Assembly: GCA_902801165.1 (NCBI GenBank)
Contig: CADCHI010000001.1
Location: 1-64,000, forward strand
Length of the DNA stretch: 64,000 bases
Origin: an uncultured Eubacteriales bacterium
GTDB lineage: Bacteria > Bacillota > Clostridia > Christensenellales > Aristaeellaceae
Direction: 5' to 3'
Positions 1,793-20,529 of the stretch are shown piece after piece. The position numbers and the translations under genes were made by a program. Every line of letters begins with the position of its first letter. Position 1 is the first letter of the stretch. Under the pieces are notes generated by a model that saw nothing but the letters and a program-made list of their open reading frames with translations, searched no databases and was not told the origin of the DNA.

Positions 1793-2239
1793 ATGGCGGA
1801 TACCAACCGGATCAGCACGGACGAGCTGCTGGCGCTGCTGTTCAAGGAACGCAACCTGGAGCACTTTCTCCAGAGGAATGAATCCGCGTACCTGACGGCG
1901 TCCTTCAGCGATTATCTGAACAACTGGTGCAGGCAGCACCTGGAGGTGCCGGAGCAGGTCATCCGGCGGGCCAACCTGGAGAAGTCCTACGGGCACCAGC
2001 TGTTCAGCGGCAAGCGCAACCCCTCCAGGGACACGGTCCTGCAGCTGGCCTTCGCCATGCGGGCCGACCTGCCCCAGGCGCAGGAGATGCTGCGCGTCGC
2101 CCGCAGGAGCCCGCTCTACCCCCGCATCAAGCGGGACGCGGCGATCATCTACTGCCTTCACAACCACATTTCGCTGGTGGACACGCAGATCATCCTTCAG
2201 GATCTGGAGCTGCCGCTGCTGGGAGGGCGAGAAAAGTGA
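1793..2239 (+). CDS. Helix-turn-helix protein paired with the membrane kinase
   Basis: 148 residues, cytoplasmic, no membrane segment. Residues about 55-100 resemble an XRE-like HTH (a helix ending in YGHQLFSGKRNPSRDTVLQL, the phrase typical of proteins found next to Firmicute Ser/Thr kinases). The rest is helical with no other recognised motif. The start ATG follows GGGGTGG. Its stop overlaps the next gene's GTG by 4 bases (GTGA), so the two are translationally coupled and probably work together, for example as kinase partner or substrate, or as a DNA-binding output. No target site is evident. Confidence 0.75.
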   Translation: MADTNRISTDELLALLFKERNLEHFLQRNESAYLTASFSDYLNNWCRQHLEVPEQVIRRANLEKSYGHQLFSGKRNPSRDTVLQLAFAMRADLPQAQEMLRVARRSPLYPRIKRDAAIIYCLHNHISLVDTQIILQDLELPLLGGREK

Positions 2240-3843
2240 ACGAATTGAAGCGCATCGTTGCGGACATGGAATCCGTGTTTGCCGAGAGCAGCTATCCAAA
2301 GGATTTCCTGGCGGACTACGACCAGATGGAGTGCCTTGCGAGCCACACCGGGCGGGAGACCTTCCTGGTCCAGCGCAAGGCGGACGGCGAGACCGCCATC
2401 GCCACCTGCTATGACCGCGCGGCCTTTCCGCTGTGCCCGGACATCCGGCTGCTGCGGGAACTGAGCCATCCCGGCCTGCCGCATTACTATGAGGAGTACC
2501 GGAACGAGAAGATGCTCTGTGTCGTGCGGGAGTACATCGAGGGCGAGCCGCTGAACGTCTACGCCCGGGACCGTCAGCTGTCCATCGGGGACATCGTGTC
2601 CCTGGCAAAGCGGCTGTGTGACATCCTGCAATCGCTGCACGGCCACGTGCCGCCGGTGGTGCATCGGGACATCAAGCCGGAGAACATCATCGTCAGGCCC
2701 AGCGGCGACATCGTGCTGATCGACTTCGACATCGCCCGCGCCGTGAAGGAGGGCAGCGGCACGGACACGGTGTTCTTCGGCACCAAGGGCTACGCGCCGC
2801 CGGAACAGTACGGCTTCGGCCAGACGGACAGCCGGGCGGACATCTACGCCTTCGGCGTGCTGCTGCGCTGGCTGGTGACGGGCAGCGCCCGGGTGAACGG
2901 GAATATCGCCATCGATTCGGACATGCAGCGGATCATCGACCGCTGCACGGCCTTCGCGCCGGAGCAGCGATTTTCGGATGTCGGCGAGGTCAAGCGGGCC
3001 CTGGAGGGCGTCGGCAGGCGCGGCAGGCGCGTTTCCATCAAGGCCGTCCTCGCGCTGGCGCTGTCGGCGGTCCTGCTGCTGGGCGCGGGCTTCGCGGTGG
3101 GCCGGTACACCGACTGGCTGAAACCCGTGCCCAGGATTGCCTTCCAGGAGCCGCTGATCGAACTGGCGGCGCGGCTGTGGATCGGCAGGGAGAGCGGACC
3201 GCTGACCGAGGAGGATCTCGCCCAGGTCACGCAGCTGTACATCTTCGGCGACCAGGCCTTCGATGGATTTGAGTCGTTCAACCAGTGCGACGTGGCCACC
3301 AGCGCGCAGGGGCCGATCCGCACGCTGGACGATCTCCAGCTGCTCAGGAACCTGGAGGAGGTGCACATCGCCCACCAGGGCTATGTGGACACGGCGGGCC
3401 TCGCGGGGCTGCCGAAGCTCTATACCGTGGAGCTCAAGCACATGCGGCTCTCCGGCGTCGCTGCCATCGCGGACGTGCCGGGGCTCAAGCACGCGGTCCT
3501 GTTCTGCGACGGGCTTTCCGATGTGACTGCGCTGGAGCGGTGTCCGTGGCTGGAGACGCTGGACATCGGGCTGAACGACATCGCGTCCCTCAACCAGGTG
3601 GGCAGCCATCCCAACGTGAGAAACCTGGGCCTTATGTGGCTGGAGTTGGACAATGTGGACGACATCGCCCAGCGCTTCCCCAAGGCGAAGAACGTGATGC
3701 TGCAGCACGGGAACATCCGGGAAATGTCCGGCCTGAAGGCGCTTCCAAATCTCGAGGCCGTCTGGGTGCTCAGCGAGCAGGCCGACGCGGTCAGCGCGCT
3801 GTTCGAGGGCACGGACGTGCAGATCAACGTCACGGAAAACTGA
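2236..3843 (+). CDS. Membrane-anchored Ser/Thr kinase-like protein with extracytoplasmic LRR-like domain
   Basis: 535 residues starting at GTG 2236, preceded by GGGAGG and overlapping the HTH gene by 4 bases. The kinase domain spans residues 25-255 with HRDIKPEN (143-150), DFD in place of DFG (163-165), and APPEQY. One transmembrane segment lies at about 268-290, followed by about 240 outer residues with leucine-rich, LRR-like periodicity. DFD is common in this Firmicute family, but the ATP-anchoring Lys seems to be missing: relatives read VAKCYD where this protein has IATCYD (Thr57), and no glycine-rich loop is obvious. It may therefore be a weak kinase or a pseudokinase. It would sense something outside through the LRR part. 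Confidence 0.85.
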   Translation: MNELKRIVADMESVFAESSYPKDFLADYDQMECLASHTGRETFLVQRKADGETAIATCYDRAAFPLCPDIRLLRELSHPGLPHYYEEYRNEKMLCVVREYIEGEPLNVYARDRQLSIGDIVSLAKRLCDILQSLHGHVPPVVHRDIKPENIIVRPSGDIVLIDFDIARAVKEGSGTDTVFFGTKGYAPPEQYGFGQTDSRADIYAFGVLLRWLVTGSARVNGNIAIDSDMQRIIDRCTAFAPEQRFSDVGEVKRALEGVGRRGRRVSIKAVLALALSAVLLLGAGFAVGRYTDWLKPVPRIAFQEPLIELAARLWIGRESGPLTEEDLAQVTQLYIFGDQAFDGFESFNQCDVATSAQGPIRTLDDLQLLRNLEEVHIAHQGYVDTAGLAGLPKLYTVELKHMRLSGVAAIADVPGLKHAVLFCDGLSDVTALERCPWLETLDIGLNDIASLNQVGSHPNVRNLGLMWLELDNVDDIAQRFPKAKNVMLQHGNIREMSGLKALPNLEAVWVLSEQADAVSALFEGTDVQINVTEN

Positions 3844-4879: not shown

Positions 4880-4949
4880 ACCGCCTTTCGCCGCGGCGAG
4901 CCATGATGAGATTCAACCTTCACCCACATACGCATGAGGAGGTTCCAAT

Positions 4950-6971: not shown

Positions 6972-7057
6972 TCGGCCCGGCAATAGAACGTTAACGGCCG
7001 TGCGGATACGAACCCAAGCAAACGGATAGCTTTAGCATATTTTGAGGAGGGGATCCC

Positions 7058-7657
7058 ATGGCCCATTACGAGTATACCAAGACCTTCAGCTTTTACGCGA
7101 CGGCGGAGGTGCCCTATCGCTACACCTGCGGCAAGTGCGGCAGGGAGGTGACCGGCAGGGCGGAGCTGGCCGGAAAGGACGAGGCGAAGGTATCCTCCCG
7201 CCACGCGGACAAACTCGCCATCAGCGACCAGTCCCGCGAGCAGCACCAGGCGGAAGCAGTATTCCGGTTGCGCGGCCAGGTGCGGTACAATCGGCGGGCG
7301 GTGAAGAAGGGCAATTTCGCCATGCTGGATAGGTATAAAAAGTGTCCCCACTGCGGCGCGGAGCAGAGGTGGGGGTATCACAGGAGCAGCGCTGTGGCCT
7401 TCATCCTGTTGGCCATCGGCGCGGCGGCGCTGGCCGTGCTCTGTGCCGTGGTCTATGTCCGCCAGGTGCGCGGCGGCAATACGGATTTCACATTCCTGGG
7501 CTGCGCCCTCTTCCTGCTGTTCTTCGGCGCGATGTTCGGCGTGCGGGCCGCCTGGGATATCAGGGGCCTGAGGGCCGCCCACGGGCAGTCTGAACAGAAG
7601 CCGGAGGTGTTCTTCGACCGGATGACCAGTCGCTGGCTCGACCGATTGAAGGATTGA
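7058..7657 (+). CDS. Zinc-ribbon-like membrane protein (copy 1)
   Basis: 199 residues. Two CxxC knuckles (CGKC near residue 25 and CPHC near 97) likely form one zinc ribbon, with a charged helical stretch between them. Two hydrophobic segments follow (about residues 111-133 and 143-165) and a short cytoplasmic tail. No enzyme motif. The start follows GAGGAGGGG. The gene at 7960 has the same architecture, so the two are diverged tandem paralogs. Function unknown. Confidence 0.7.
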   Translation: MAHYEYTKTFSFYATAEVPYRYTCGKCGREVTGRAELAGKDEAKVSSRHADKLAISDQSREQHQAEAVFRLRGQVRYNRRAVKKGNFAMLDRYKKCPHCGAEQRWGYHRSSAVAFILLAIGAAALAVLCAVVYVRQVRGGNTDFTFLGCALFLLFFGAMFGVRAAWDIRGLRAAHGQSEQKPEVFFDRMTSRWLDRLKD

Positions 7658-7959
7658 CGGAGGGGTAGAGCCGGAGCGCTGCTGCTCACGGGCTCCGCCG
7701 TTGGGGCGGCGATGTCCTTTGGCGGGGGCGGTACCTTATATACCCTGCCCCGGCGGCGTTGATCGGCGGCTGCGTGGCCGGGACGCCGGGCGCGAGGATG
7801 ATTCCCAACGGCGGTATTGAGCTGCAAAAAGCCAAGACTTCCGTCGGTTCTGCGGGGCGCGCTCCGTCATCCACCTTCTGCACGGCGTCTCAGGTACGTT
7901 ACCAGATCCGTTCCAGAGAGGAGAAACCCGTCGGGTATTGATAGAAGGGGGAATGAAAC
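7658..7959 (+). other. Intergenic stretch between the two paralogs
   Basis: No supported gene. Small frames exist but lack Shine-Dalgarno and protein-like composition. GC-rich with only weak local hairpins. The ribosome-binding site of the next gene (AGGGGG) closes it. Confidence 0.4.
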
Positions 7960-8586
7960 ATGGCGAGATACGTTGCGAACATCGATACCAGCTACAAGCA
8001 GCCCATACCATATCACTTCACCTGCAACCACTGCGGCGAAGTCAACCAGAAATCCTATGAGATCACCATAAGCGTGAAGGCCAGCGGCAGCGCCCGGAAC
8101 GCGCAGGGCGTGCGCGAGCTGGCCCATCGCCAGCACGACAGGCAGGTGAAAAAGGCCGTCCGGGAAAAGAACCGGGCCATCGAGAAGTATCGCCAGAAGC
8201 TGGTCGCGGGAAAGGTCGCCGGGGGCAAGCTCTCCTATATTCCGCTGAACAGCGAATGCGAGCACTGCGGCAAGTGCCAGATGTGGAACCCGGCCATTCC
8301 GGAAAAGGAATACGCCGCCAAGGCCGCAGGGGTCCTGAAGATCGTCGGGGGCCTCGCGGGCGCGCTGGGCTTCATCGGAGCCTTCTTCACCTTCTTCTTC
8401 CTCCATGCCCAAGGCGCGGGCGTCGCCCTGGCGGTGCCCGGCGCGCTCGCTGGCGCAGCGCTGCTGGGCTTGATTCTCTTCAAGGTCGGGGATGCCATCA
8501 ACGACCACCGGGAGGCCGCCTGGTTCCGGGAGCACCTGGCCGGCGAGCCCAACGACCCGGACAGGCTGCCGGTGATCGACAAGTGA
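7960..8586 (+). CDS. Zinc-ribbon-like membrane protein (copy 2)
   Basis: 208 residues. CNHC near residue 22 and CEHC near residue 103 flank a Lys/Arg-rich helical region (residues 45-85). Two transmembrane segments follow at about residues 121-145 and 150-170. Same domain order as the gene at 7058. The start follows AGAAGGGGG with good spacing. No recognised family beyond the ribbon-like cysteines. Confidence 0.7.
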   Translation: MARYVANIDTSYKQPIPYHFTCNHCGEVNQKSYEITISVKASGSARNAQGVRELAHRQHDRQVKKAVREKNRAIEKYRQKLVAGKVAGGKLSYIPLNSECEHCGKCQMWNPAIPEKEYAAKAAGVLKIVGGLAGALGFIGAFFTFFFLHAQGAGVALAVPGALAGAALLGLILFKVGDAINDHREAAWFREHLAGEPNDPDRLPVIDK

Positions 8587-8970: not shown

Positions 8971-11010
8971 ATGGCATATACGGCGTTTGAGCGCATGAGA
9001 GAGATCAACAAGAGCCGATACAAAGTGGACCTGGGGCCGGTGCAGCCGCCGGTGAGATGGGGCCAGAATGAAAACGACCTGAAATCCGCGGCGCTGCGCT
9101 TTCTGCGGGAGCGCTGCGAGGGGCTGCGCCACGACGCGGACATCGAGGCGCGGGAGAACGCGAGCGGTGTCTTTGAGGGCGCGAGCCTGAACGCGAACCA
9201 GATCCCCTACAACATGCAGATGGATATCGACCGCCTGTGCCTGGAAAAGACCCTGGGGGACTTCATCGACTCTGGCACGGCGGAGGACGCCTATTCCGTC
9301 TACTTCTGCTACATCAACATGTTCCTGGGCAAGTACGGCGAATCCAAGAAGATGGTGGAGCTGCTCTCGGAATACGAGGCCAACGGCAGCTCGCTGCTGA
9401 TGAAGCACCGGGACCACTATTCCCACTCCGTCTACGTGTTCGCGCTGGGGCTGGCCATCTATGAGACCAACGGGGCCTACCGCGAGGCATTCAGGGCCTT
9501 CTACAGCCGGCAGGCCGCGGACGCGCGCGAGGCGGCCAACCTGTTCCTGGAGATCTGGGGCCTGACCGCGCTGTTCCACGACATCGGCTATCCCTTCGAG
9601 CTGCCCTTTGAGCAGGTGCTCTCCTATTTCGAGGTCAACCACCAGAAGCGGGGCAAGGACAGCGTGTACCTGGCCTATCGGGGCATCGATAGGCTGGTGA
9701 CGCTGGACGAGCCCGCCAGAGCGCATTTCGCGGAGCTCTACGGCGTGGAATTTGAGACCGTCACCCAGCTGCTGGCCTGGGACATCGCCCAAAAGCTGGG
9801 GGAGGACTACGGCGTGACCGCGGAGGGCCTGCGGGGCGTGATCGACGCCAAGCCGGTGTCGCCGGAGAGCTTCGGCCTGTTCATGGACCACGCCTTCTTC
9901 AGCGCGGCGCGGCTGTACCGGGAGCTGACGGGCCCTGGCAAGGGTGCGGGCCTGCGGACGGAGCAGGTGGACGCCCTGTCCGCCATCCTGCTGCACAACA
10001 GCCTGTTCAAGTTCGCCATCGCCTTCTACAAGGACCCCGTCAGACGCAAGGGGCCCCTGCAGGCCCGGCGGCACCCGCTGGCGTTCCTTTTGATGATCTG
10101 CGACGAGCTCCAGTGCTGGGACCGCACCGCCTATGGCCGCAACTCCCGCACGGAGCTGCACCCGATGGACGCGAGGTTCGACTTCACGGGCGGCGCGATC
10201 CGCGTGACGTACGTCTACGACAGCGCTGAGGGTCAGAAGATCGCCGCCTTCCATGCGGCTTATACCGCCTGGGAGGAGGGCGGCGAGCAGGGCGATCCGC
10301 CGCGGCTGAAGGCCTACAGCGACATGGCCGAGAAGGAGCAGCGCTTCACCCGGGACATCGAGAAGATCGTCGATACCTCCATCATGCCCCTGGACGTTCG
10401 TGTGAAGCCGGAGAAGGCGAACCGGGGCAGGAAGCACACCTACCTGTCTGGCAGCAACTTCCTTCACTTCTACGACTTCGCGGTGGCGCTGCACGGCAGG
10501 AACATGCCGCCGGAGTCCACGGCGGCGGACATGGAGAAGAAGTTCACGTCCCATTCGCTGGAGTACCAGCTGTCCACGCTGAACCGCGCCCGCCACTTCG
10601 CCCGCTACCTGGACGCCATCCGCTGCTTCTACACGGACAAGCCCGTGGACTACGACATGGTCGGCGCGTTTACCCCGGCCCATGCCGCCGTGTTCGCGCC
10701 GATGGAGCACGAGCGCTGGGTGCGGGAGCACATCGCCATGGGCTGGCGCAGGGGCGACGAGTACGAGGCGCTGACCAAGGACCTGCCGGAGGCGGAGCGG
10801 AAGGCGGCCCGCGCGGCGCTCCGGGAGCAGCTGCGACGCCACAAGCTGACCATGGATGGCGATCCCACCGAGGCGGAGGTCGCCGACCACTACAGGGGCC
10901 TGGACGAGGTGGACCAGGACAAGGACTGGAAGCCCTTCAACCGCATGCTGCAGCTGCTCAGGAAATACGACGGCACCCGAATCTACAGCCTGGAGAGCAT
11001 GGAGAAATAG
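8971..11010 (+). CDS. HD-like domain protein with C-terminal RyR domain
   Basis: 679 residues from ATG 8971, chosen because GGGAAGGTGG precedes it; an upstream in-frame ATG at 8896 lacks one. Residues about 140-225 carry HD-like features: KHRDHYSHS (His146, 149, 152) and LFHDIGYPFE (HD at 203-204), as in metal-dependent phosphohydrolases. Residues about 571-665 match an RyR domain (MEHERWVREHIAMGWRRG, later DKDWKPFNRMLQLLRKY, and a TRIYSLE end). Bacterial RyR domains are thought to bind nucleotide-derived ligands and occur in conflict-system gene sets. The TIR gene follows after 3 bases, so both are made together. It may act as sensor or ligand-turnover component. No membrane segment. Confidence 0.75.
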   Translation: MAYTAFERMREINKSRYKVDLGPVQPPVRWGQNENDLKSAALRFLRERCEGLRHDADIEARENASGVFEGASLNANQIPYNMQMDIDRLCLEKTLGDFIDSGTAEDAYSVYFCYINMFLGKYGESKKMVELLSEYEANGSSLLMKHRDHYSHSVYVFALGLAIYETNGAYREAFRAFYSRQAADAREAANLFLEIWGLTALFHDIGYPFELPFEQVLSYFEVNHQKRGKDSVYLAYRGIDRLVTLDEPARAHFAELYGVEFETVTQLLAWDIAQKLGEDYGVTAEGLRGVIDAKPVSPESFGLFMDHAFFSAARLYRELTGPGKGAGLRTEQVDALSAILLHNSLFKFAIAFYKDPVRRKGPLQARRHPLAFLLMICDELQCWDRTAYGRNSRTELHPMDARFDFTGGAIRVTYVYDSAEGQKIAAFHAAYTAWEEGGEQGDPPRLKAYSDMAEKEQRFTRDIEKIVDTSIMPLDVRVKPEKANRGRKHTYLSGSNFLHFYDFAVALHGRNMPPESTAADMEKKFTSHSLEYQLSTLNRARHFARYLDAIRCFYTDKPVDYDMVGAFTPAHAAVFAPMEHERWVREHIAMGWRRGDEYEALTKDLPEAERKAARAALREQLRRHKLTMDGDPTEAEVADHYRGLDEVDQDKDWKPFNRMLQLLRKYDGTRIYSLESMEK

Positions 11011-11013
11011 CGC

Positions 11014-13248
11014 ATGAAGCTTCAATACATCACCCGCGGCATGAGCGACGCCAGGGGCAAGCCCCGGGTGTTCCTGGCCTGCCATCCGGAGGACCGGGAA
11101 AGGGCGATTCCGCTGATTGCGGAGGACCTGCTGCGCCACGCCAACTGCGCCGTGTGGTACGACGCCGAGCCTGAGGCGGACTTTGATCCTCAGGAGCTGC
11201 GGGCGGCGCTGGACGAGATGCAGCTGTTCGTGGCGGCGGTGAGCTCGAAGTTCCTGTATACCGCCCACCGGGCGAAGGACGTGGAGCTGAAATACGCGCT
11301 CCAGAGGCACATCCCCGTGCTGCCCATCCTGTTGGAATCCGGGCTTTCCCGGGAGTTCAACCGGGTGACGGACACGAAGATCCAGGTCGTGAACCGCTGC
11401 GTCAGCGACCCCACCGCCACGCCCTACGAGGAGGTGCTGGACACCTATTTGAAGTCCATGCTGGTGGGGAATGAGCTGGCCGAAAAGGTGCGGGACGCCT
11501 TCGACGCCTATGTGTTCCTGAGCTACCGCAAGAAGGACCGCCGCCACGCCCAGCGCCTGATGCATCTGATCCACGAGAACAAGCAGTTCCGGGACATCGC
11601 CATCTGGTACGACGAGTTCCTGGTACCCGGCGAGAACTACAACGACGCCATCCGCGACGCCTTTGAAAAGAGCGGCTTGTTCGCCCTGGCGGTGACGCCC
11701 AGCCTGTTGGAGCCGGAGAACTATGTGATGCGGGTGGAGTTCCCACTGGCCCGGGACAGGCGGAGGGATAAGGGCGATTTGCAGATCGTGCCGGTGGAGC
11801 TGTACGAGACGGCGCTGGGCGATCCGCGCACCGACCGGGGCCAGCTGGAAACGGCTTATCAGGAGATCCCGCCCCTGCAGGACGAGCACAGGCCGGCGGA
11901 GATGAACGCGGCGCTGCTGGACGCGCTCGGGCGCATCGCCAGGAAGGAGAGCGACGGCTCTGCGCGGCACCGCTTCTTCATCGGCCTGGCCTACCTGTGC
12001 GGCATCGACGTGGAGGTGGACCGAAGTCGAGCCCTTGAACTGCTGGAATCCGCTGCCACAGACCCGGTTCCCTGCTTCGACGCCACGGAAAAGCTGGTGG
12101 ACATGTACCGCAGCGGCGACGGCGTGGCGCTGGACTTGAACCGGGCCATCCAGTGGCAGCGGCGGCTGTGCGAACAGTGCCGGTCAGAGCATGAAAAGGG
12201 CCATTCGCCGGACGAGCATCTGGGCTTCGGCACGCGGTACTTCCGGGCGCTGATGGGGCTCTCCGACCTGCTCCGGGAGGCCGGTAGCCTGCCCGAGGCC
12301 GTTGTCACTGCCGAGCAGGCGCTGGCGGTGGCCGGCACGCTGACCGACGAGGTGGGCGCGCGGGAGGTGGACCGGGACACGGCCGTCATCTGCAACCGCC
12401 TGGGCGGGCTGTGTCGCGCCTCCGGGGACCTGGACCGGGCGGAGGCGTACTACCGCCGTTCGCTGGACATCAGCGAGCGCCTGGCCCGGGAGATGGGCAC
12501 GGCCCGCGCACGCCGGGACCTGTCCGTCAGCCAGGAGCGCCTGGGGGACGTCTACAGGAAGCGCGGGGAGCCGGACCGGGCGGAGGCGCTGTACCTGAGC
12601 GCCAGGGCCCTCCGGGTGGCGCTGAACGACGCCATTGGCGATGCCGGCACCCGGCGCGACCTGTCGGCCATACTCACCAAGCTGGGGAACGTCAAAAGGG
12701 CCAGGCGGGACTACGACGGCGCGGCCGGGGACTACGGCGCGGCGCTGGAGCTGGACCGGGTGCTGGCCGAGGAGACACGCACCTGGCAGGCGAGGGACGA
12801 CTACGCCGTCAGCCTCGTGAAGCTGGGCGACGTGCAGCGCACCCGGGGCGAGACCCGCGAGGCGGTGGAACTGCAATCGAAGGCCGTGGAAATATTCCAG
12901 AAAAACGTCGATGAGACCGGCTCCCTGGAGTACCGGAAGCACCTGGCCTCGGGGCTGGAAAAGCTGGCGAAGTCCTGGGTCGGCCTCTGGCAGCGGGAGC
13001 CGGCGGAGCGGTGCTACCGGCGATCCGTCGCCCTGCGGGAGGACTTGATGAACGAATACCCCTCCCACATCACCCGGCATGAGCTCGCCACGGCGTACTT
13101 CCTGTTTGCCGACTTCTCCGGCGACGCCGGCATGATGCGCCGGGCGCTGAGACTGTGGGAGGAGATGTGCCCGGACCACCCGGAATACGCGCGATATGCC
13201 GACAGCGCGCGGCGCATGCTGGCAAAGCTTGTGCCAGTCCATGACTAG
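11014..13248 (+). CDS. Double-TIR protein with Sel1-like and TPR repeats
   Basis: 744 residues, starting 3 bases after the HD-RyR gene. TIR1 lies at about residues 18-110 (RVFLACHPEDRERA, WYDAE, then AKDVELKYA) and TIR2 at 163-270 (AYVFLSYRKKDRRHAQ, IWYDEFLVPGE, then VMRVEFPLA). Both keep a Glu (91 and 242) at the helix position that is catalytic in NAD-cleaving TIR domains. Residues about 326-390 are Sel1-like and about 400-700 are TPR repeats. Bacterial TIR proteins either destroy NAD during defence or make signalling nucleotides; which applies is unknown. The stop codon TAG lies at the boundary of a mobile-looking repeat. Confidence 0.8.
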   Translation: MKLQYITRGMSDARGKPRVFLACHPEDRERAIPLIAEDLLRHANCAVWYDAEPEADFDPQELRAALDEMQLFVAAVSSKFLYTAHRAKDVELKYALQRHIPVLPILLESGLSREFNRVTDTKIQVVNRCVSDPTATPYEEVLDTYLKSMLVGNELAEKVRDAFDAYVFLSYRKKDRRHAQRLMHLIHENKQFRDIAIWYDEFLVPGENYNDAIRDAFEKSGLFALAVTPSLLEPENYVMRVEFPLARDRRRDKGDLQIVPVELYETALGDPRTDRGQLETAYQEIPPLQDEHRPAEMNAALLDALGRIARKESDGSARHRFFIGLAYLCGIDVEVDRSRALELLESAATDPVPCFDATEKLVDMYRSGDGVALDLNRAIQWQRRLCEQCRSEHEKGHSPDEHLGFGTRYFRALMGLSDLLREAGSLPEAVVTAEQALAVAGTLTDEVGAREVDRDTAVICNRLGGLCRASGDLDRAEAYYRRSLDISERLAREMGTARARRDLSVSQERLGDVYRKRGEPDRAEALYLSARALRVALNDAIGDAGTRRDLSAILTKLGNVKRARRDYDGAAGDYGAALELDRVLAEETRTWQARDDYAVSLVKLGDVQRTRGETREAVELQSKAVEIFQKNVDETGSLEYRKHLASGLEKLAKSWVGLWQREPAERCYRRSVALREDLMNEYPSHITRHELATAYFLFADFSGDAGMMRRALRLWEEMCPDHPEYARYADSARRMLAKLVPVHD

Positions 13249-13437
13249 AGTCTGTTTCTAAAATGCCAGAAGCGCATTTTCGGCGTATTTGACTGCATTT
13301 CTGCGTTGATTTCCCTTGATTTACCGCCAGTAAACCCGCGGAACCTTGATTTACCGCCAGTAAACCCGCGGAAAATCGCCTTGAAATGCAGCCAAATCCG
13401 TTCGAAACTGCATCTCCCTGCATTTAGAAGCACACTC
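13247..13437. repeat. MITE-like element with AGTCTGTTTCTA / TAGAAGCACACT ends
   Basis: About 190 bases with imperfect terminal inverted repeats (AGAGTCTGTTTCTA at the left, TAGAAGCACACTC at the right). It has no coding capacity and contains a tandem 30-bp duplication. A partial direct copy follows at once. Confidence 0.6.
13314..13373. repeat. Exact 30-bp tandem duplication
   Basis: The 30 bases at 13314-13343 (CCTTGATTTACCGCC through CCCGCGGAA) are repeated without change at 13344-13373, inside the MITE-like element. The lack of any difference suggests a recent event. Confidence 0.9.
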
Positions 13438-13439
13438 GA

Positions 13440-13517
13440 AAGTCTGTTTCTATAATGCCTGAATCGCATTTTCGACGTATTAGACTGCATTTCTGCGTTG
13501 GTTTCCCTTGATTCACC
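13440..13517. repeat. Second, truncated copy of the MITE-like element
   Basis: About 77 bases match the left end of the element at 13247 with a handful of differences (AGTCTGTTTCTATAATGCC and GACTGCATTTCTGCGTTG are clear). It stops at TTCACC, where unique sequence begins, so the right end is lost. Confidence 0.7.
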
Positions 13518-13592
13518 ACAGAGGATATCGACGGCGCAGCGCGAGACCTGCGGCGCTGTGGCGGACGCGACCAGGAGGGAGGCATTGAGCGA

Positions 13593-16500
13593 ATGGACAG
13601 CTTCACCATCGGCAACAGCATGAGCAAGCTGAGCCTGCTGGAGACCTGGCACCCCAGGACCGACGCGGACCTGGACGCCATCACCAGCGAGCGCATCAGC
13701 CCCGGCGAGCGGCTGCTGGAGTGCTACACGGTGGAATCCGAGCCGCTGAAGGGCGGCATGGGCAGCGTGTGGCGCGTGCGCTACGACGCCCTGGACAAGC
13801 CACTGGCCATGAAGCGGCCCCAGCCCCGGTTCTTTGCAGAGGCCGGCGTGGAGACCAAGGCGAGGTTCATCCACGAGTGCGAGGCCTGGATCGGCCTGGG
13901 GCTGCACCCGAACATCGTGGCCTGCTACTATGTGCGCGACATCGGCGGCGTGCCCTCCATATTCGCCGAGTGGATGGAGGGCGGCAGCCTGGAGAGGCGC
14001 ATCCGCGACGGCAGCCTCTACGACGGCACGCCCGAGGAGAACCAGGCGCGGCTGCTGCGCATCGCGCTGCAATTCGCCCGGGGGCTGCGCTACGCCCACG
14101 ATCGCGGCATGGTGCACCAGGACGTGAAGCCCGACAACGTGCTGCTCACCGCGAACATGGTGGCCCGGGTCTCTGACTTCGGGCTGTCCGGCGCCTATGA
14201 AACGCTGGCCGCGGGCGGCGCCATCGCCGGCTCCGGCGCGTACACGGTGGCCTACTGCTCGCCGGAGCAGGCCCGCCGGGAGCCCCTGTCCATCCGGACC
14301 GACATCTACAGCTGGGCGGTATCCGTCATGGAGATGTACGCCGGCGGCTGTCGCTGGAGGGACGGCCGGGAGGCCGGGGAGCGCTGCGAGGCGTACCTGG
14401 CCGACTGCCGCGTCGATGTGCCGGAGGGGCTGGCCGCGCTGCTCAGGCGCTGCATGCGGGAAAGGGAGGCCGACCGCCCCGCGGATTTCGGCGAGGTGGA
14501 GGACGCGCTGCGGGCCGTCTATCGGGAGGCCTGCGGCGCGGATTGGGACGGCGACGATGGCGCGGCTGCCTCCGATTCCGCCGATTCCCTGAACAACCAG
14601 GCCGTCAGCTACATGGAGATCGGCCTGTCGGACAGCGCCGCCCACTGCTGGGAGGAGGCCGGGGAGATCGACCCGACCCACGTGGAGGCCCTGTACAACC
14701 GCGCGCTGATCGCCTGGCGAAGCGGCGAACAGACGGACATGGAGGTCTGGCGGAAGCTGCTGAGCCACCCCTTCTTCATGCGCACGGAGGCCGGCCGGGA
14801 GGCGGTGGAAGCCCTCGCACGGGAGGCGGGTAAGCGGGCGATGGACGAGCCGCTGTTCGCGGATGAGCCGGAGCGGGAATGCGATTCCGGCGTCGGCCTG
14901 TGGCGTGGCCGCGCCTATGTCCCGGAGTCGGCTGGCGACGCGCTGTTTTTGAAGGTCATGGACGCCGGGACGGGGGCGCTTATCGAGCGGATCGACCTCA
15001 GCGAGGTCGCGCGGCGGGTCCAGGACAGGATCGGCAGGGTATTCCTGAGCGAGGACTGCGCCCAGCTGGGGCTGGCGGTCGGGAAGGACCGGGTGATCGT
15101 CTGCGACATCGCGTCGAAGGCGGTGCTCTACGACGTCCGGCTGGGCGAGACCAGCATGTATGACAGCGGCATCAACTACATGCTGTTGGGCCGGGACAGC
15201 CGCTTTTTGAAACGTATGGTCTCCCACGGCATGGGCCACGCCGCGCCCACCCCGGAGACCTACGACCTGTCCACGGGCCGGCGGGTCCGGCAGGGCCAGG
15301 TCACCTATGCGGACTGGCAGCTGGTCAACGCCGGCGCGGACGCCCTGCCGGACGAGGCGAAGGGCAAGGAGTACCCCTGCACCCTGTGCGACGGCCTGCG
15401 GGCGGTGCCGGTGCTCGAGCAGGGAGAGACCCTGATGGCCTGCGATGACTCCGGACGCCCGACCGCCGCGCTGCCCCGGGCCCTGGCGAAGGAAGCGCCG
15501 GACATCCGTCGGGACATGCCCGGGGAGGGCGTTCGGCGCATCGTGGAGGACGGCACGGTGTGGCTCGCGGGCAGCGAGGGGCTGATGCAGTTCGACCTGT
15601 CCAGCGGAAAGTGCCTGAGGAGCTACGGCCTTCCCGAGCGCTTCTTCATGCAGCTTTACGTGGACGAGCGCGGCGAGGGCGTGATCTGGCGCAGGAACCG
15701 AGGCAGGGACGAAAAGCCAGTGTGGAAGTACCGCCCTCTGCCGCCCGTGCGGGAGGAGGACCGGGCCGGGTGGCTCATCGCCGCGCTGGAGAGCTTCGAG
15801 GAATACCGGGACCGGGTCCGGCGTCTGGAATCGCTGTACGGGGATTTCCGTCGGGCGGACGACGGCGGGGACCGGGCGGGCATGTGCCGGATCTACGGCG
15901 AGGCCTCCGGCATCCGGCGCTTCTTCGGCAGCGAAAACCAGCAGGCCATGGCGCGCCGCCTGAACGCGGCCTGTCGCCAGCGGAACGGCTACCTGCTCCA
16001 ACTGGAAAACGGGGAGCTGACCCCGGACGCGGCGGCGGGTATTCTCGCGCCCTTTGGGCTGAACGGCGCGAAGGACAAACAAGCCAGGCCGCAGGCGGCC
16101 CGGGAGACGCCCCGGACCGTGACCTGGCCGGGCGGCGCCTATGCCTTTGCGGACGAGGCGGAGAAGCGGGCGTTCACCGGGCGGTTCGTGGATGCGTTCC
16201 GGGTGCTGGACGCCGACGAGGCCCACGGGCTGATCGCGGTGGTAGCCAAGCGCAGCAAGGGCGGCATCGAATACAACTTCAAGGTCTGGAGCGTCGACGA
16301 GCGGCGGTTCCTGCTGGACATCCCCCTGACCGGCTATTGGCAGGACAAATGGATCGCCGCCGGCTTTGGCAGGACGGAGGCGGCGAAGCAGCACATGCTG
16401 CTGGCTGTCACGGGCGTGGAGCCCCGGATCAGCCTGGAAAACCCGCCCTACGCCGTCTACCAGTTCAGCTGCGACTACGGCCCGGAAGCGCCGCGGCGCG

Positions 16501-17576
16501 TGCCGCCGAAGGCCTCCGGCGCGGAGCGCGCGACCGGCGGCAAAGCCCGCGACGACGCGGTGGCGGGGCTGCACAGGGCCTATCGGGACCGCGCCGTGAC
16601 CGCGGTGGCCTGCCCCGGGGAGAGGGCCTGCCAAAGGGAGCGGGACAACGCAGCCGTGAAGCTGAAGGCCGCCTTCCAGGACATGGGCAAGGCCCTGGAC
16701 GTGGAGGCGCTCTCCCGCTGGCACGGGGAGTATCGCGCCTTGGCGGAGGCCCGTCCAGCGGCGGAGGGTTGCGGGCCGATGAGGGACTTTGTCCAGTCAC
16801 AGCTGGCCTTCGCCCTCTCCCAAAGGGAAGCCCCGGCGGAGAAGCTGCGCGCGCTCGCCCTGTACGACGACCTGGCCGCCCGGTACCCGGAGAAGGAGCT
16901 GTATCGCAAGAATGCCGGCGTTCTCGCAAACCAGCTGGTCGCCGCGCTGGAGCGCCTGGGGGCGGCGCAGGACGCTGAAGGGCTGGAGCCCCTGTACGAG
17001 GCCGCCCGAAGTCAATTCGGCGGCGGTCCGGCAGGTGAGGAAGCCTCGCGCGTTCGCACGAGCGCCGAGTCCCAGTACGCCTTCGCCCTGTCCCGCAAGG
17101 AGGACCTGGAGAGCAAGCTGAAGGCCCTTGCCCTGTACGACGCGCTGGCCGAGCGCCACCCGGAGAAGGCGCTGTACGCCAAGAACGCGCAGGTCGTGGC
17201 AAACCAGGCGCTGGTCAGCTTTGACCGCATGGGGGAGGCACTTGATGCTGAGGCCCTGGAGGGCTGGCACGGGCGCTGCGCGGAGCTGCAATCCGAGCGC
17301 CCGGGACGTGAGCTGATCGCCAGGGTGTTCGACGGCGCGGAGGCGCAGCTGGCCTTCGCCCTCTCCCGCACGGAGGATATTGACAGCAAGGAGCGGGCGC
17401 TGGAGATGTTCGAGGGGCTCAGCCGCCGCCGACCGGAGGAGCCCGCATACGTCAGGAACGCCGGCATACTCGAGGGACAGCTGTTCAGGCTGCGGCGCGA
17501 ACAGAAGAAGCAGGAACGACGGAAGGCGCGGGAGGAGGGCCGGGGCGGCCTGTTCTCCCTGTTCAAGCGGAAATGA
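13593..17576 (+). CDS. Large Ser/Thr protein kinase with TPR, propeller-like and helical repeats
   Basis: 1327 residues. The kinase domain spans residues 40-315 with an intact set: KGGMGSVW loop (53-60), LAMK (Lys74), HQDVKPDN (175-182, HRD changed to HQD), DFG (195-197), and SPEQA. A TPR-like pair follows (about 335-380). The middle part (about 430-860) has beta-rich repeats like a degenerate WD40 propeller. The C-terminal 300 residues hold three related helical units of about 90 residues, each with AFALSR, ALALYD and YxKNA phrases. No transmembrane helix, so cytoplasmic. Probably transcribed with the TIR operon across the 344-base repeat region, or from its own promoter. Substrate unknown. 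Confidence 0.8.
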   Translation: MDSFTIGNSMSKLSLLETWHPRTDADLDAITSERISPGERLLECYTVESEPLKGGMGSVWRVRYDALDKPLAMKRPQPRFFAEAGVETKARFIHECEAWIGLGLHPNIVACYYVRDIGGVPSIFAEWMEGGSLERRIRDGSLYDGTPEENQARLLRIALQFARGLRYAHDRGMVHQDVKPDNVLLTANMVARVSDFGLSGAYETLAAGGAIAGSGAYTVAYCSPEQARREPLSIRTDIYSWAVSVMEMYAGGCRWRDGREAGERCEAYLADCRVDVPEGLAALLRRCMREREADRPADFGEVEDALRAVYREACGADWDGDDGAAASDSADSLNNQAVSYMEIGLSDSAAHCWEEAGEIDPTHVEALYNRALIAWRSGEQTDMEVWRKLLSHPFFMRTEAGREAVEALAREAGKRAMDEPLFADEPERECDSGVGLWRGRAYVPESAGDALFLKVMDAGTGALIERIDLSEVARRVQDRIGRVFLSEDCAQLGLAVGKDRVIVCDIASKAVLYDVRLGETSMYDSGINYMLLGRDSRFLKRMVSHGMGHAAPTPETYDLSTGRRVRQGQVTYADWQLVNAGADALPDEAKGKEYPCTLCDGLRAVPVLEQGETLMACDDSGRPTAALPRALAKEAPDIRRDMPGEGVRRIVEDGTVWLAGSEGLMQFDLSSGKCLRSYGLPERFFMQLYVDERGEGVIWRRNRGRDEKPVWKYRPLPPVREEDRAGWLIAALESFEEYRDRVRRLESLYGDFRRADDGGDRAGMCRIYGEASGIRRFFGSENQQAMARRLNAACRQRNGYLLQLENGELTPDAAAGILAPFGLNGAKDKQARPQAARETPRTVTWPGGAYAFADEAEKRAFTGRFVDAFRVLDADEAHGLIAVVAKRSKGGIEYNFKVWSVDERRFLLDIPLTGYWQDKWIAAGFGRTEAAKQHMLLAVTGVEPRISLENPPYAVYQFSCDYGPEAPRRVPPKASGAERATGGKARDDAVAGLHRAYRDRAVTAVACPGERACQRERDNAAVKLKAAFQDMGKALDVEALSRWHGEYRALAEARPAAEGCGPMRDFVQSQLAFALSQREAPAEKLRALALYDDLAARYPEKELYRKNAGVLANQLVAALERLGAAQDAEGLEPLYEAARSQFGGGPAGEEASRVRTSAESQYAFALSRKEDLESKLKALALYDALAERHPEKALYAKNAQVVANQALVSFDRMGEALDAEALEGWHGRCAELQSERPGRELIARVFDGAEAQLAFALSRTEDIDSKERALEMFEGLSRRRPEEPAYVRNAGILEGQLFRLRREQKKQERRKAREEGRGGLFSLFKRK

Positions 17577-17595
17577 GAGGGAGGCGTGATTCTGT

Positions 17596-18114
17596 ATGAG
17601 TAAGAAGGAGACGGCGGGCATCGTGGTCATGACGATCTTCCTGGTGGTGTTTGTGGCGCTGTGCATCGGCGGCATCGTGTTTGGCGTTCACAGCTTCATC
17701 AAGATAAGCAAGCAGAAGACGGAGGACAAGGCGACCCTGAGCGCCTGGAGCGAGGTCTGGGAGAGCGGCGAGGCCGTGGACGGGCTCGTCGTGAGGATCA
17801 AGGACAGGGCCGCTCGGGACAACTACGAGATGCGCTACGCGGTGGACGGGACCGACTACAGCCAGGTCTGCTCCATCAACGCCAAGACCTTCGCGGCCAT
17901 CGACGGCGAAGACAAGGATGGCCAGGGCGGGGTGGAGATCCACTACGATCCCGACGACCCGCAGGTCGCCGCCTGTGAGGCCGCCATCGAGGGTTTGAAG
18001 GAGGCCGACAAGAACGCCAGCGTGGGCCTGATGCTGCTGGCCGTGGCCTTTATGATCCTGCTCTATGGGGTCGTGAAGGAGGTCCTGATAAAGGTCCTGG
18101 TGAGGATGCGCTGA
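17596..18114 (+). CDS. DUF3592-like membrane protein
   Basis: 172 residues. A transmembrane segment at about residues 8-32 and another at about 141-163 flank an outer beta-rich domain (GLVVRIKDRAARDNYEM, HYDPDDP), the DUF3592 layout. No catalytic motif. The start lies 19 bases after the kinase stop, with GAGAGGGAGG upstream, so it belongs to the same transcript. It could anchor or report to the kinase at the membrane; this is inference from position. Confidence 0.65.
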   Translation: MSKKETAGIVVMTIFLVVFVALCIGGIVFGVHSFIKISKQKTEDKATLSAWSEVWESGEAVDGLVVRIKDRAARDNYEMRYAVDGTDYSQVCSINAKTFAAIDGEDKDGQGGVEIHYDPDDPQVAACEAAIEGLKEADKNASVGLMLLAVAFMILLYGVVKEVLIKVLVRMR

Positions 18115-18184
18115 GGACAGGCGCGCCGCGATGGCGGTCAACGGCTTCAACCCCTGTTTCTTCAATTGTTGAGGAGCACTTGCC

Positions 18185-18580
18185 ATGTCCTGCTACCGAA
18201 GGCAGAAGGTGCTGCGGATCGCCGCCGACCGGGTGGGCGTCCACGGCCGCGCGGCCTATGAGCAGTTTGAGGCGGAACACCCCGGCGCGTTGGAATTTGC
18301 GGCGGGGCATCTGTCGTATTCCCTCGCCAGCACCGGCGACAGGCTCTACTTCGATTACTGGCTCTATGACAGGGATATGCCCGGGCTTTGCGCCCTGGAC
18401 GCCTATGCGTGGAGCCGGGTCCTGACGTCGATGGAGCGCAGGAAGTATGCCGCAGCGTTTCGCCGCCTGTTCCCGAACGTGGACATGGACGACGTGCGCT
18501 ACTGCGAATACGTGTGGTACGACGGCATCGAGGCGCCGGAATGCCTCGAACGGGACAGAGGTGATGCGGATGAGCTATGA
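18185..18580 (+). CDS. Unrecognised 131-residue protein
   Basis: Small soluble protein with several Tyr, Trp and Cys residues and no signal peptide or membrane segment. The start follows TGAGGAGCAC. The end overlaps the next gene's start by 11 bases, so it is translationally coupled to the PTP-like protein. The last 15 residues are acidic and Arg-rich (LERDRGDADEL). I recognise no family. Confidence 0.6.
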   Translation: MSCYRRQKVLRIAADRVGVHGRAAYEQFEAEHPGALEFAAGHLSYSLASTGDRLYFDYWLYDRDMPGLCALDAYAWSRVLTSMERRKYAAAFRRLFPNVDMDDVRYCEYVWYDGIEAPECLERDRGDADEL

Positions 18581-19250
18581 ATATGAACTGGCGGAGATCT
18601 ATCCGGGCCTCGTCACGTGTACCCAGGCAGACCTGAACGCGCTGCTGCGATCAAAGCCGGACGCCATTGCGGTGCTGGACCGGCTGCCCGCCTGTATATG
18701 GGAGGCGGGCTTTGAGGGCGAGCTGCTCTACTATCCCATCGCCCCATGGGAGGTGCTCCCTGTAAAGGTGCTGGAGCGTCTGGCGGACCGGATCGCGTCG
18801 CTGGTGCGGGACGGGAGGCGTGTGGCCATCTACAGCCGGGAGGACTCGGGGCGCATTTGCTATATCGCGGCCTGCGCCCTGTGCCTGCTGGGCGTTCGGG
18901 AGCCCATCAACCACCTGCGAAGGCGTTGGAAGGCCAGCGGCGCACAGCACAGCGCGGTTCAATACTTCTGCCTCCGCCACACCGTGAACCGCGCTCAAAA
19001 AGTCGAACACATACAGGTCGACGACCTGGAGGCCTTCCAGCAGGATGAGGACATCCGGGCGGCGTATCAGCGCATTGGCGAAGCGATGGGGGAGGAGGCC
19101 CGGTTCCTCCTGCGCTTCTCCGGGCAGCTGCCCAGCGTAAAGATCATGGCGGAGGCGGCCAACCCGGCGCTGTGCGCCCACGCCGTGGACGATTTCATCG
19201 ATATTGTGAAGCAGAAGGGCTACTATGTGGGAACTGTGGTGGATGGGTAG
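18570..19250 (+). CDS. Protein-tyrosine-phosphatase-like protein with Ser in place of the P-loop Cys
   Basis: 226 residues from ATG 18570, which has AGAGGTG upstream; ATG 18564 is also possible. The fold signature of dual-specificity phosphatases is visible: a hydrophobic strand (RRVAIY), then a loop with SREDSGR (Ser89, Arg95), then a helix IAACALCLLGV and LRRRW. In active enzymes the loop is C-x5-R, so Ser89 stands where the catalytic Cys should be. Such proteins usually bind phospho-groups without hydrolysing them. The assignment rests on pattern only; it may be another fold. Coupled to the 131-residue protein and close to the kinase. Confidence 0.5.
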   Translation: MSYEYELAEIYPGLVTCTQADLNALLRSKPDAIAVLDRLPACIWEAGFEGELLYYPIAPWEVLPVKVLERLADRIASLVRDGRRVAIYSREDSGRICYIAACALCLLGVREPINHLRRRWKASGAQHSAVQYFCLRHTVNRAQKVEHIQVDDLEAFQQDEDIRAAYQRIGEAMGEEARFLLRFSGQLPSVKIMAEAANPALCAHAVDDFIDIVKQKGYYVGTVVDG

Positions 19251-19311
19251 CAGATCCATGGGCAATGAAGTTTTCAGAAGGGAAAACCGGAGTCGGATGA
19301 GGTGACGCGAA

Positions 19312-20529
19312 ATGGCGGAGCAACATGGCCTTGTCATCGAGAACGGGCTGCTGAAAAAGTACGAAGGCCACGGCGGGCGCGTCGTGATCCCGGAGGGCGT
19401 GACGGAGGTCGGCGACAGGGCATTCCAGCATTGCAAGGAGCTGACGGAGGTATCGACCCCTGCCACCGTAAAGCGCATCGGGAAGGGCGCCTTCCGGTAC
19501 TGCGAGAACCTCAAGGGCATCGCGCTGGGGGCGGGCGTCGGGGAGATCGACGACGAGGTGTTCCAGGGCTGCTTCAGCCTGCGGCGCATCGCCCTTCCGG
19601 CTGGGGTGCGGCGAATCGGACGCAGGTCGTTCGCCTGGTGCCTGCGCCTGAAAAAGGTCGCGCTCCCGGCAGCGCTGCGCCAGATCGACGCCGGGGGTTT
19701 TAGCGGCTGCGCGGCGCTGGCGGAGCTGGCGCTGCCGGAGGGACTGACGCACATCGGCGAGAACGCCTTCTGCGGTTGCGAGAGCCTGACAGAGCTGGTC
19801 ATTCCCCAAAGCGTCAGAAGCATCGGCAAATGGGCGTTCAACGATTGCAAGGGCCTTGCGCGGGTCGCCGTCACGGACAGCGTGGAGGATTTCAGCGTCT
19901 TTTGGGGATGCGCCAGCCTGGAGGCATTCGTCGTTTCACCGGCGTCCCGGCGCTATCGCGCGGTGGACGGCGTCGTGTTCAGCCGGGACGGGAGCCGCCT
20001 GATCGCCTATCCGCCCGGGCGTCGCCGCGAACGCTATGACATCCCGAAAGGCACCACGGCGTTTTTGGCAGGCGCCTTCGACAGGGCCCCGGTGAAGGTG
20101 GTCTTCGCGCCAAGGGGCGTGCAGTGCGTTCCGGGCTATACATCGGGCAGCGAAAACAGCCCCTGCTTTGCAAGCGGGGATCCTGCCCTCGCGACCCAGG
20201 TGGGAAGGTATGTCTACCTCGGTTCCTTGGACGACCTGCCCAGGCGTCAGCGGCGAATCGCCGCGGAGGGCTTCCTGGCCGCCCTTGAAATCGGCATGCC
20301 GGAGCTGGAGCCATGGAAGGACGGCTATATCGACTACATCCGGGAGGAGTACGTCACGTATGAAAAGAAGGCCTGGCGGAACGGGACTGTCTTGCGCCTG
20401 CTGATGGACAGTGGCATGCTGAAGCCGGAGACGGCGGAGACGATGCGTCGGAAGTTCGATGCCAAGGGAAAAGCCGACCTGGCGAAAGCGCTGGCCGACT
20501 ATCTGGACGCGCGAGCCGCCATGCAATGA
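19312..20529 (+). CDS. LRR_5 (BspA-type) leucine-rich repeat protein without signal peptide
   Basis: 405 residues. Residues about 20-190 hold repeated units of the form IPEGVTEVGDRAFQHCKEL, the LRR_5 repeat of BspA-like proteins (at least 6 copies, each with a Cys after the AF/SF/GF step). Residues 200-290 continue in degenerate form and the last 90 residues are helical. BspA proteins are usually surface proteins, but this one has no signal peptide or wall-anchor, so it should act in the cytoplasm, probably as a protein-binding scaffold. Start ATG follows ATGAGGTGACGCGA. A terminator follows the gene, ending the island. Confidence 0.75.
   Translation: MAEQHGLVIENGLLKKYEGHGGRVVIPEGVTEVGDRAFQHCKELTEVSTPATVKRIGKGAFRYCENLKGIALGAGVGEIDDEVFQGCFSLRRIALPAGVRRIGRRSFAWCLRLKKVALPAALRQIDAGGFSGCAALAELALPEGLTHIGENAFCGCESLTELVIPQSVRSIGKWAFNDCKGLARVAVTDSVEDFSVFWGCASLEAFVVSPASRRYRAVDGVVFSRDGSRLIAYPPGRRRERYDIPKGTTAFLAGAFDRAPVKVVFAPRGVQCVPGYTSGSENSPCFASGDPALATQVGRYVYLGSLDDLPRRQRRIAAEGFLAALEIGMPELEPWKDGYIDYIREEYVTYEKKAWRNGTVLRLLMDSGMLKPETAETMRRKFDAKGKADLAKALADYLDARAAMQ

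Follow-up and report, generated by a model that had tools for sequence, protein, structure and literature searches.

What do the genes of a cassette that sets an HD-RyR protein beside a double-TIR protein do together, and which of them belong together? The cassette lies in a 64,000-nt stretch of DNA (the window) from contig CADCHI010000001.1, assembly GCA_902801165.1, of an uncultured gut bacterium of the Eubacteriales (Aristaeellaceae) whose genome (G000: 3.5 Mb, 98 contigs) is 88.6% complete. An earlier reading of the letters without database searches (the sequence-only reading) had placed seven co-directional genes on the plus strand within 8971-20529; open reading frames and Pfam domains bear out their existence and their positions. 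The first encodes the HD-RyR protein (679 residues, 8971..11010, +), the conserved core of the cassette; 3 bp separate its stop (11010) from the start (11014) of the gene for a 744-residue TIR-TIR-Sel1-TPR protein (11014..13248, +). Comparison of genomes shows that the conserved unit is HD-RyR plus TIR. Our favored account, held tentatively and with slightly less than even confidence, is that the pair is a two-gene signaling module of Thoeris-like build with a different receptor-effector, in which a TIR-made signal would act through RyR to give an HD output.

Linkage and co-occurrence of HD-RyR and TIR

A pattern scan from the window HD-RyR, run over a genome collection of 84,980 species, yielded 267 relatives, and the 80 best loci among them were retained. 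By label 79 of the 80 are Bacillota, many from the ruminant gut; the other (L112) is a metagenome-assembled genome of Flexilinea (Chloroflexota). Gene order was compared in 84 loci, namely those 80 plus the window, G011, G018 and G044; the divergent G065 and G094 were left out, as was G020 (the contig of L086). A TIR gene is present between four genes upstream and six genes downstream of HD-RyR in 59/84 loci, and in 44 of the 54 loci where four or more genes are available on each side; 47 of these 54 have a TIR gene or a gene for a second partner, SLOG-SLATT. Counts from six-frame translation agree with those from gene order: TIR lies within 6 kb of HD-RyR in 38 of the 49 loci whose flanks reach 6 kb each way, and TIR (within 6 kb) or SLOG-SLATT (within 8 kb) in 42. 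The TIR models behind these counts were built from proteins near HD-RyR; the families were therefore not chosen blind, and other TIRs may escape. Conserved gene order, which the sequence-only reading had set as the check on its cassette, thus holds for the HD-RyR/TIR pair; the full set of seven genes is complete in no other locus examined.

The neighbors could be unrelated passengers of an accessory region, their co-occurrence with HD-RyR being indirect: accessory genes cluster generally, and the loci include close relatives. We nevertheless regard this as very improbable, because the frequency of TIR falls steeply with distance from HD-RyR. At offset +1 a TIR is found in 33/81 cases and at +2 in 22/75, but at seven or more genes the counts are 0/128 upstream and 1/95 downstream. 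Across 12 HD-RyR genomes TIR genes are sparse, at 1 to 5 TIR_2 matches each, and the cassette gene is the sole TIR_2 match at E <= 0.001 in G000. The same genome gives one HD-RyR match and one weak RyR match, both of which are the cassette gene.

The phyletic pattern speaks to the same question. In a sample of 100 relatives, G000 included, HD-RyR matches occur in 14: 12 are close (54-100% identity; the gene of G011 is truncated where its contig stops) and two, in G065 and G094, are divergent (at most 36%). Presence of the close form is therefore patchy (12/100 relatives, 9/28 genomes in the genus). The window-type TIR partner is found in seven genomes, every one of which belongs to the 12 that have close HD-RyR (7/5/0/88, p=5e-8); this count leaves aside weak TIR matches (E 2e-5 to 3e-9) in G067, G074 and G011. 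SLOG-SLATT occurs in nine genomes, seven of them among the same 12 (7/5/2/86, p=1.6e-6), the cases outside being G047 and a fragment in G064; the match in G044 spans half the query. Restriction to the 28 genomes of the genus gives 6/3/0/19 for the TIR partner (p=2e-4) and 5/4/0/19 for SLOG-SLATT (p=1e-3). These Fisher tests are uncorrected for relatedness, which leaves some room for passengers; against them stands G017, where HD-RyR (contig C2) and the TIR partner (contig C14) co-occur though on different contigs. The sequence-only reading had held that a lack of conserved co-occurrence would count against the cassette: the 38/49 loci and the p of 5e-8 are the opposite.

Repeated exchange of partners on the HD-RyR tree, which takes partial account of relatedness, is also hard to square with passengers. 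On a quick tree of 78 HD-RyR sequences (where some rows without a partner are short contigs), the three partner types require a minimum of 12, 12 and 6 changes, of which the starred branches force 8, 7 and 5. Since these changes are fewer than with shuffled labels, TIR partners are inherited for a time and exchanged often. Such exchange is what would be predicted if one conserved receiver served many TIR sensors.

The partners themselves differ in build. Besides the window type, HD-RyR is adjoined by TIR with WD40 and by proteins in which a TIR domain, a transmembrane (TM) segment and leucine-rich repeats (LRR) follow one another. In the TIR-TM-LRR family a clear TM segment is present in 22/28 members, and 22/22 carry the more basic of its two flanks on the N-side; the same bias is seen in 24/27 members with TM of the large TIRd family, while the TIRc family gives no clear sign of topology (8 against 5 of 21). 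The more basic N-side flank predicts that TIR-TM-LRR partners hold their TIR inside and their LRR outside, as a Toll receptor does. By sight, these partners come with two further TM proteins that resemble pseudo-TIRs. TIR-TM-LRR or larger TM-LRR proteins stand beside HD-RyR at L044:12864-14030, L041:13374-16439 and in relatives, often together with SLOG-SLATT; their positive-inside signal is strong, and both their domain order and their predicted topology are Toll-receptor-like.

Two-gene forms and RyR domains in other settings

The pair also occurs in compact form. In G392 and G476 a divergent 578-residue HD-RyR overlaps the following TIR gene by 4 bp (Pfam for the G476 pair: RyR at E=7e-14; TIR_2 plus LRR); among 35 genomes sampled at the level of their order, no match beyond these two and a weak one in G513 was found. 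A gut contig with an unverified phage label (MT836912.1) carries HD-RyR and then a TIR gene, with an overlap of 8 bp.

A survey that began from RyR, blind to TIR, gave a similar picture. The Pfam RyR model, applied over its cut-off (under which the window RyR falls) to 398 Bacillota genomes, matched in nine, and in eight of these the RyR gene is near a TIR gene or a gene for DUF4062, reported to be a TIR-like NADase (PMC13174449). Nearby TIRs were found by the HD-RyR-derived models and confirmed by Pfam for L146, L149, L180, L181 and L182. Six genomes (G223, G345, G408, G196, G392, G476) have a TIR within 10 kb: the order in G223 is RyR, TIR, RyR, and in G408 a RyR protein of 95 residues adjoins TIR. 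In G310 and G431 the neighbors are DUF4062 genes. Because G392 and G476 belong to one genus, and G196 and G310 to one family, the independent cases number about seven. The surveyed RyR is a C-terminal part joined to HD, TrkA_N, RelA_SpoT plus LSDAT, AAA or no other named domain, or it stands alone; a module that appears in such varied combinations beside TIR or DUF4062 is more easily read as a receptor than as a degrader.

Some of these loci merit mention in their own right. At L146:8841-12472 and L148:8486-12112, a TrkA_N-RyR protein adjoins a relative of SLOG-SLATT with TIR or DUF4062 near, a second RyR system; L147:2814-5408 encodes an 864-residue protein of RelA_SpoT, LSDAT_prok and RyR near a TIR gene; and at L180:8812-13985 two RyR proteins, one with AAA, flank a TIR gene.

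Conserved residues of the HD-RyR and TIR proteins

The HD metal motif region of the window HD-RyR (9406..10104, +) contains H152, H203-D204, H307, H342 and D378. All six residues, assigned as ligands by motif, are invariant in 74/74 sequences of an HD-RyR alignment (A1), as are H146, H149 and H368. The order 'H...HD...H...H...D' is that of a dinuclear HD motif, and known HD proteins are described as mostly phosphohydrolases (PMC8177086): the invariant set thus reads as the six-ligand motif of a dinuclear HD phosphohydrolase.

The C-terminal RyR domain (10648..10998, +) is conserved to the same degree, with E579, H580, R582, W583, W592 and D652 invariant in 74/74 (A1). H624 is kept in 75/77 sequences of a script alignment, which covers 77 of 86 HD-RyR sequences and leaves out G011, G065 and G094 (for length) and six others whose translations continued beyond the stop codon. 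When 11 RyR domains were aligned, of which seven belong to HD-RyR-like proteins from outside the window, H580, W583, W592 and G595 were present in 11/11, and the position of D652 is D in nine and N in two. The phage RyR protein RyDEP is reported to cleave 2'- and 3'-cyclic ADP-ribose (2'cADPR, 3'cADPR) by way of H75 and D117 and to have W78 and H100 in its pocket (PMC13232231). Judged from this description of RyDEP, the H-x-x-W spacing and the aligned Asp match H580, W583 and D652 to H75, W78 and D117; H100 has no sure counterpart, H624 sitting in an insert. A search of PDB sequences with the HD-RyR profile gave RyR3 for the top four chains (E=0.09-0.11) and an unrelated fifth (0.3); for the single RyR region the matches were RyR1 (0.26), RyR3 (0.41 or worse) and an unrelated reductase (0.98). 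PHROGs gave nothing useful for HD-RyR, and for the RyR part of the divergent L149 protein (Pfam RyR at 7.3e-14) two families of unknown function (3e-8 and 3e-7).

The TIR protein matches TIR_2 (2e-17) over two stretches, followed by Sel1 and TPR, and has no TM segment by hydropathy. The sequence-only reading had described two Glu-bearing TIR domains. Both Glu are present: E91 (codon 11284) is the candidate in domain 1 (11062..11403, +; borders by eye), and E242 (codon 11737) the candidate catalytic Glu in domain 2 (11512..11868, +). The two are not equal, however, since E242 is kept in 24/24 family members and E91 in 18/24 (window included in both). By virtue of E242 the protein likely has the catalytic Glu of a TIR NADase. 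The best PADLOC ThsB match to the TIR part has E=4.5e-7; the TIR profile found no match at 0.01 among PDB sequences.

Receptor or off-switch

How might the two proteins work together? The TIR protein, with its Glu kept and Sel1/TPR as the sensor part, would detect a trigger, most likely phage infection, and turn NAD+ into an ADP-ribose-type signal. Binding of this signal by the C-terminal RyR would switch on (or redirect) the HD phosphohydrolase of the same chain, and the activated HD would attack a nucleotide pool or messenger, leading to arrest of the cell. Kinases, LRR proteins, a pseudo-phosphatase and, elsewhere, SLOG-SLATT may provide added layers of sensing or output. From domains and motifs, invariant residues, adjacency, co-occurrence and repeated partner exchange, which are observed, we infer the signal, its binding by RyR, the activity and substrate of HD, and the role in defense.

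The chief rival turns the direction around. HD-RyR may be an off-switch, in which RyR (as glycosidase or sponge), HD or both remove the TIR-made signal and TIR is the acting arm. RyDEP, a glycosidase that is said to turn 2'/3'cADPR into ADP-ribose by a His/Asp dyad (PMC13232231), puts signal degradation close behind the receptor-effector reading: the corresponding His580 and Asp652 are invariant in HD-RyR. The prevalence of phosphohydrolases among known HD proteins (PMC8177086) would suit removal of a signal, and a two-gene operon also suits a toxic NADase with its guard. Against this, of the phage proteins in the same report only RyDEP cleaved; none of eight further RyR homologs did, and six of the eight bound 2'/3'cADPR signals (PMC13232231, 2026 preprint). 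RyR is also fused to TrkA_N, RelA_SpoT and AAA parts, for which degradation has no need, and some HD-RyR loci are without a TIR neighbor. On balance we think an off-switch unlikely, if still the strongest competitor.

Three considerations favor the receptor-effector reading. In TIR settings RyR comes joined to a variety of other parts; no further effector gene is seen in the two-gene form; and a single conserved HD-RyR pairs with many TIR sensors, much as in Thoeris one conserved ThsA meets varied ThsB TIRs. The sequence-only reading had joined the two proteins through an NAD-derived signal that HD-RyR 'senses or degrades'. Adjacency, phyletic co-occurrence and invariant active-site residues support the joint role, and of the two options sensing, coupled to an HD enzyme, is the one we favor.

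Several results weigh against a defensive receptor-effector. Family models are weak on HD-RyR itself: the window protein gives E=0.006 for Pfam HD and about 0.011-0.013 for RyR, both under the cut-offs, with 0.087 for the NCBIfam model TIGR00277 (HDIG), and PADLOC models do not match it. Among 24 family members (E up to 1) Pfam RyR matches 19 (best 2e-5) and Pfam HD five (best 0.0056, under cut-off); the HD model also fails to match the divergent L149 protein. Because Pfam HD matches 5/24 members, the HD label rests on the invariant motif and not on family models, and a nucleotide-cutting HD enzyme is probable on that basis. Seven of the 49 loci (L053, L060, L085, L091, L094, L107, G044) have neither TIR nor SLOG-SLATT within the counted distances, although L053 has TIR genes further off. 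The divergent HD-RyR genes of G065 and G094 lie amid housekeeping genes with no TIR by these models, and the RyR gene of G241 has neither TIR nor DUF4062 nearby by the same models. Two SLOG-SLATT queries gave 0 matches in G000, a genome 88.6% complete. Mobile records of HD-RyR are few (one phage-labeled record and one IMG/VR contig). Finally, the genes around the window cassette show no defense island by sight, those downstream resembling sugar use.

Extent of the cassette and its variable genes

The last of these points, together with the two kinases, LRR, zinc-ribbon-like membrane and secreted proteins of the window locus, would fit a general locus for stress or developmental signaling outside immunity, with NAD-derived or other nucleotide ligands and kinases as the main output. 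Kinases do occur near HD-RyR in 13/21 TIR2-type loci; the figures are 5/26 for TIRb-type and 0/8 for TIR909-type loci. The patchy presence of HD-RyR noted above is, however, more like that of accessory immune genes, and its genomic surroundings vary, one copy (L154) lying near genes labeled by sight as relaxase-like and ParM-like. We consider a non-immune role improbable, more so than an off-switch. A plasmid-borne system was dropped, no plasmid record with HD-RyR having been found.

The sequence-only reading had assigned to a kinase network the setting of the threshold. With kinases in part of the loci only, that idea is without support and was dropped. The 1327-residue kinase of the window (13593..17576, +; Pkinase 1e-27) has intact motifs (AMK, HQD, DFG), no TM segment by hydropathy and a near relative in G015 (68.6% over 1327 residues). 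The gap that separates it from the TIR gene is 344 bp long and contains a repeat (13249..13517, no strand), made up of 77-nt direct copies at 13249 and 13441 plus a 30-nt perfect tandem. With 48 matches over many contigs of G000, itself included, this is a dispersed element. A simple scan of the gap found no terminator-like or promoter-like site, which does not decide the operon question. Several of the genes had been described as overlapping or nearly touching: all seven are co-directional, but this repeat-bearing gap splits TIR from kinase, and one tight seven-gene operon was accordingly dropped.

Beyond the kinase lies the gene for a DUF3592 membrane protein (172 residues, 17596..18114, +; DUF3592 2e-5), the sole product of the seven with TM segments (two, by hydropathy); a relative follows the TIR gene in G030. 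A 131-residue protein (18185..18580, +; no Pfam match) belongs to a family that recurs at HD-RyR loci, with relatives at L048, L050, L069, L087 and G015. It is followed by a PTP-like protein (226 residues, 18570..19250, +; alternative ATG at 18564), earlier taken as phosphatase-like. The likeness holds, but Ser (S89, codon 18834-18836) replaces the Cys of CX5R, which relatives in L113, L059 and L038 keep: an active phosphatase was dropped, and the protein is probably a dead one. The last gene encodes an LRR_5 protein (405 residues, 19312..20529, +; LRR_5 4e-46) with no TM segment by hydropathy.

The SLOG-SLATT partner found elsewhere (531 residues) has a 'VGVTGHR'-like start, and near-full-length members have two neighboring TM segments near 266-308 (236-279 in the shorter L113). 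The L098 protein matches a YspA-type SLOG (E=0.003) and DUF4231 (1e-4), both under the Pfam cut-offs, whereas L038 has no Pfam match at 0.1; DUF4231 we take to be of the SLATT kind. SLATT has been predicted to be a membrane effector regulated by ADP-ribose derivatives (PMC9503650). Downstream of HD-RyR in three genomes (L085, L034 (G011), L038) is an MSKFN...PT protein, by sight alone a relative of Ro60/TROVE. Kinases and these other genes form a variable layer around the HD-RyR/TIR core.

The cassette probably starts further left than 8971, with genes for an HTH protein (148 residues, 1793..2239, +; blastp cluster 8) and a receptor-shaped kinase of kinase-TM-LRR build (535 residues, 2236..3843, +; blastp cluster 9). 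By blastp the two fall together with gene pairs that immediately precede HD-RyR in L042, L044, L046, L053, L064 and L069, the HTH gene standing two genes upstream and the kinase gene next to HD-RyR; in L047 a pair of these families sits upstream of the TIR set. The evidence is this clustering and not matches to the hidden Markov models, which the window proteins had helped to build. Homology also breaks near 1423: G022, a genome without HD-RyR but with the nearest copy (97%) of the first window gene, matches the window at 93% over 2-1423, differs over the rest of the 30 kb compared and holds there, by sight, a transport operon. The representative of cluster 8 (L069) matches Pfam HTH_31 at 3.5e-5, under the cut-off. 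The kinase has HRDIKPEN at 143, DFD at 163 and a TM segment at about residue 268-288 with a basic N-side flank, more basic than the other in 8/8 members of the kinase-LRR family (window included). Its C-terminal part resembles the LRR part of relatives (representative L044: Pkinase plus LRR_4). The products encoded between this kinase and HD-RyR (4223-8586) are secreted proteins and two-TM proteins of zinc-ribbon-like type; G015 and G004 have a relative of 4223-4879 between HD-RyR and TIR.

Comparison with known systems

The HD-RyR/TIR operon was not found in titles or abstracts among the matches listed in our literature searches, and the partnership looks like an undescribed branch of TIR-based immune signaling. 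Burroughs and others (2015) reportedly predicted RyR, SLOG, SLATT and TIR in one nucleotide-network setting; that work is not known to describe an HD-RyR/TIR two-gene core with the present gene set. Whether RyR binds cADPR-type ligands is an old question of calcium signaling, and binding by phage RyR proteins is now reported (PMC13232231). The module places a bacterial RyR beside a probable signal maker, making ligand, binding and output testable in a two-gene system.

A wider proposal is more doubtful than the module itself: that bacterial RyR domains are receptors of TIR-made ADP-ribose signals, and that HD-RyR is a signal-gated, nucleotide-degrading immune effector in a branch of its own within the TIR immunity of gut Bacillota, partly run by Toll-shaped receptors and LRR receptor kinases. 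If true, a type of receptor-effector would be added to TIR-based immunity in a major gut lineage, that immunity would be linked to membrane-bound, Toll-shaped TIR-LRR proteins, and the R12 domain of animal ryanodine receptors would have a bacterial relative in immunity whose ligand class is known.

Four known systems invite comparison. DUF4062/Swarozyc shares a TIR-like NADase family (PMC13174449), members of which adjoin RyR genes in L148 and L151 and occur at HD-RyR loci L053 and L069; Pfam matched no DUF4062 in the window cassette. Clover (CloA dNTPase plus CloB), as described, has an HD enzyme steered by a nucleotide from the partner gene, a likeness in partner-made nucleotide control; its partner is a nucleotidyltransferase and not a TIR, and the Clover abstract names no RyR (PMC12265719). 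RyDEP and other phage RyR proteins share the RyR (R12) domain with its His, Trp and Asp pocket residues and the link to TIR-made cADPR, but RyDEP is described as a phage anti-defense protein (PMC13232231), while HD-RyR is a bacterial 679-residue HD fusion encoded directly before a TIR gene. The fourth is Thoeris. No ThsA effector of known type (SIR2-SLOG, Macro) was matched by Pfam, NCBIfam or PADLOC in the scanned cassette genes. As in Thoeris, a TIR protein (a counterpart of ThsB: TIR_2 2e-17, PADLOC ThsB 4.5e-7) stands beside a protein with a likely ADP-ribose-type ligand domain, so far as the published descriptions go (PMC11204291, PMC13232231); the difference is that the partner of TIR in the cassette is HD-RyR.

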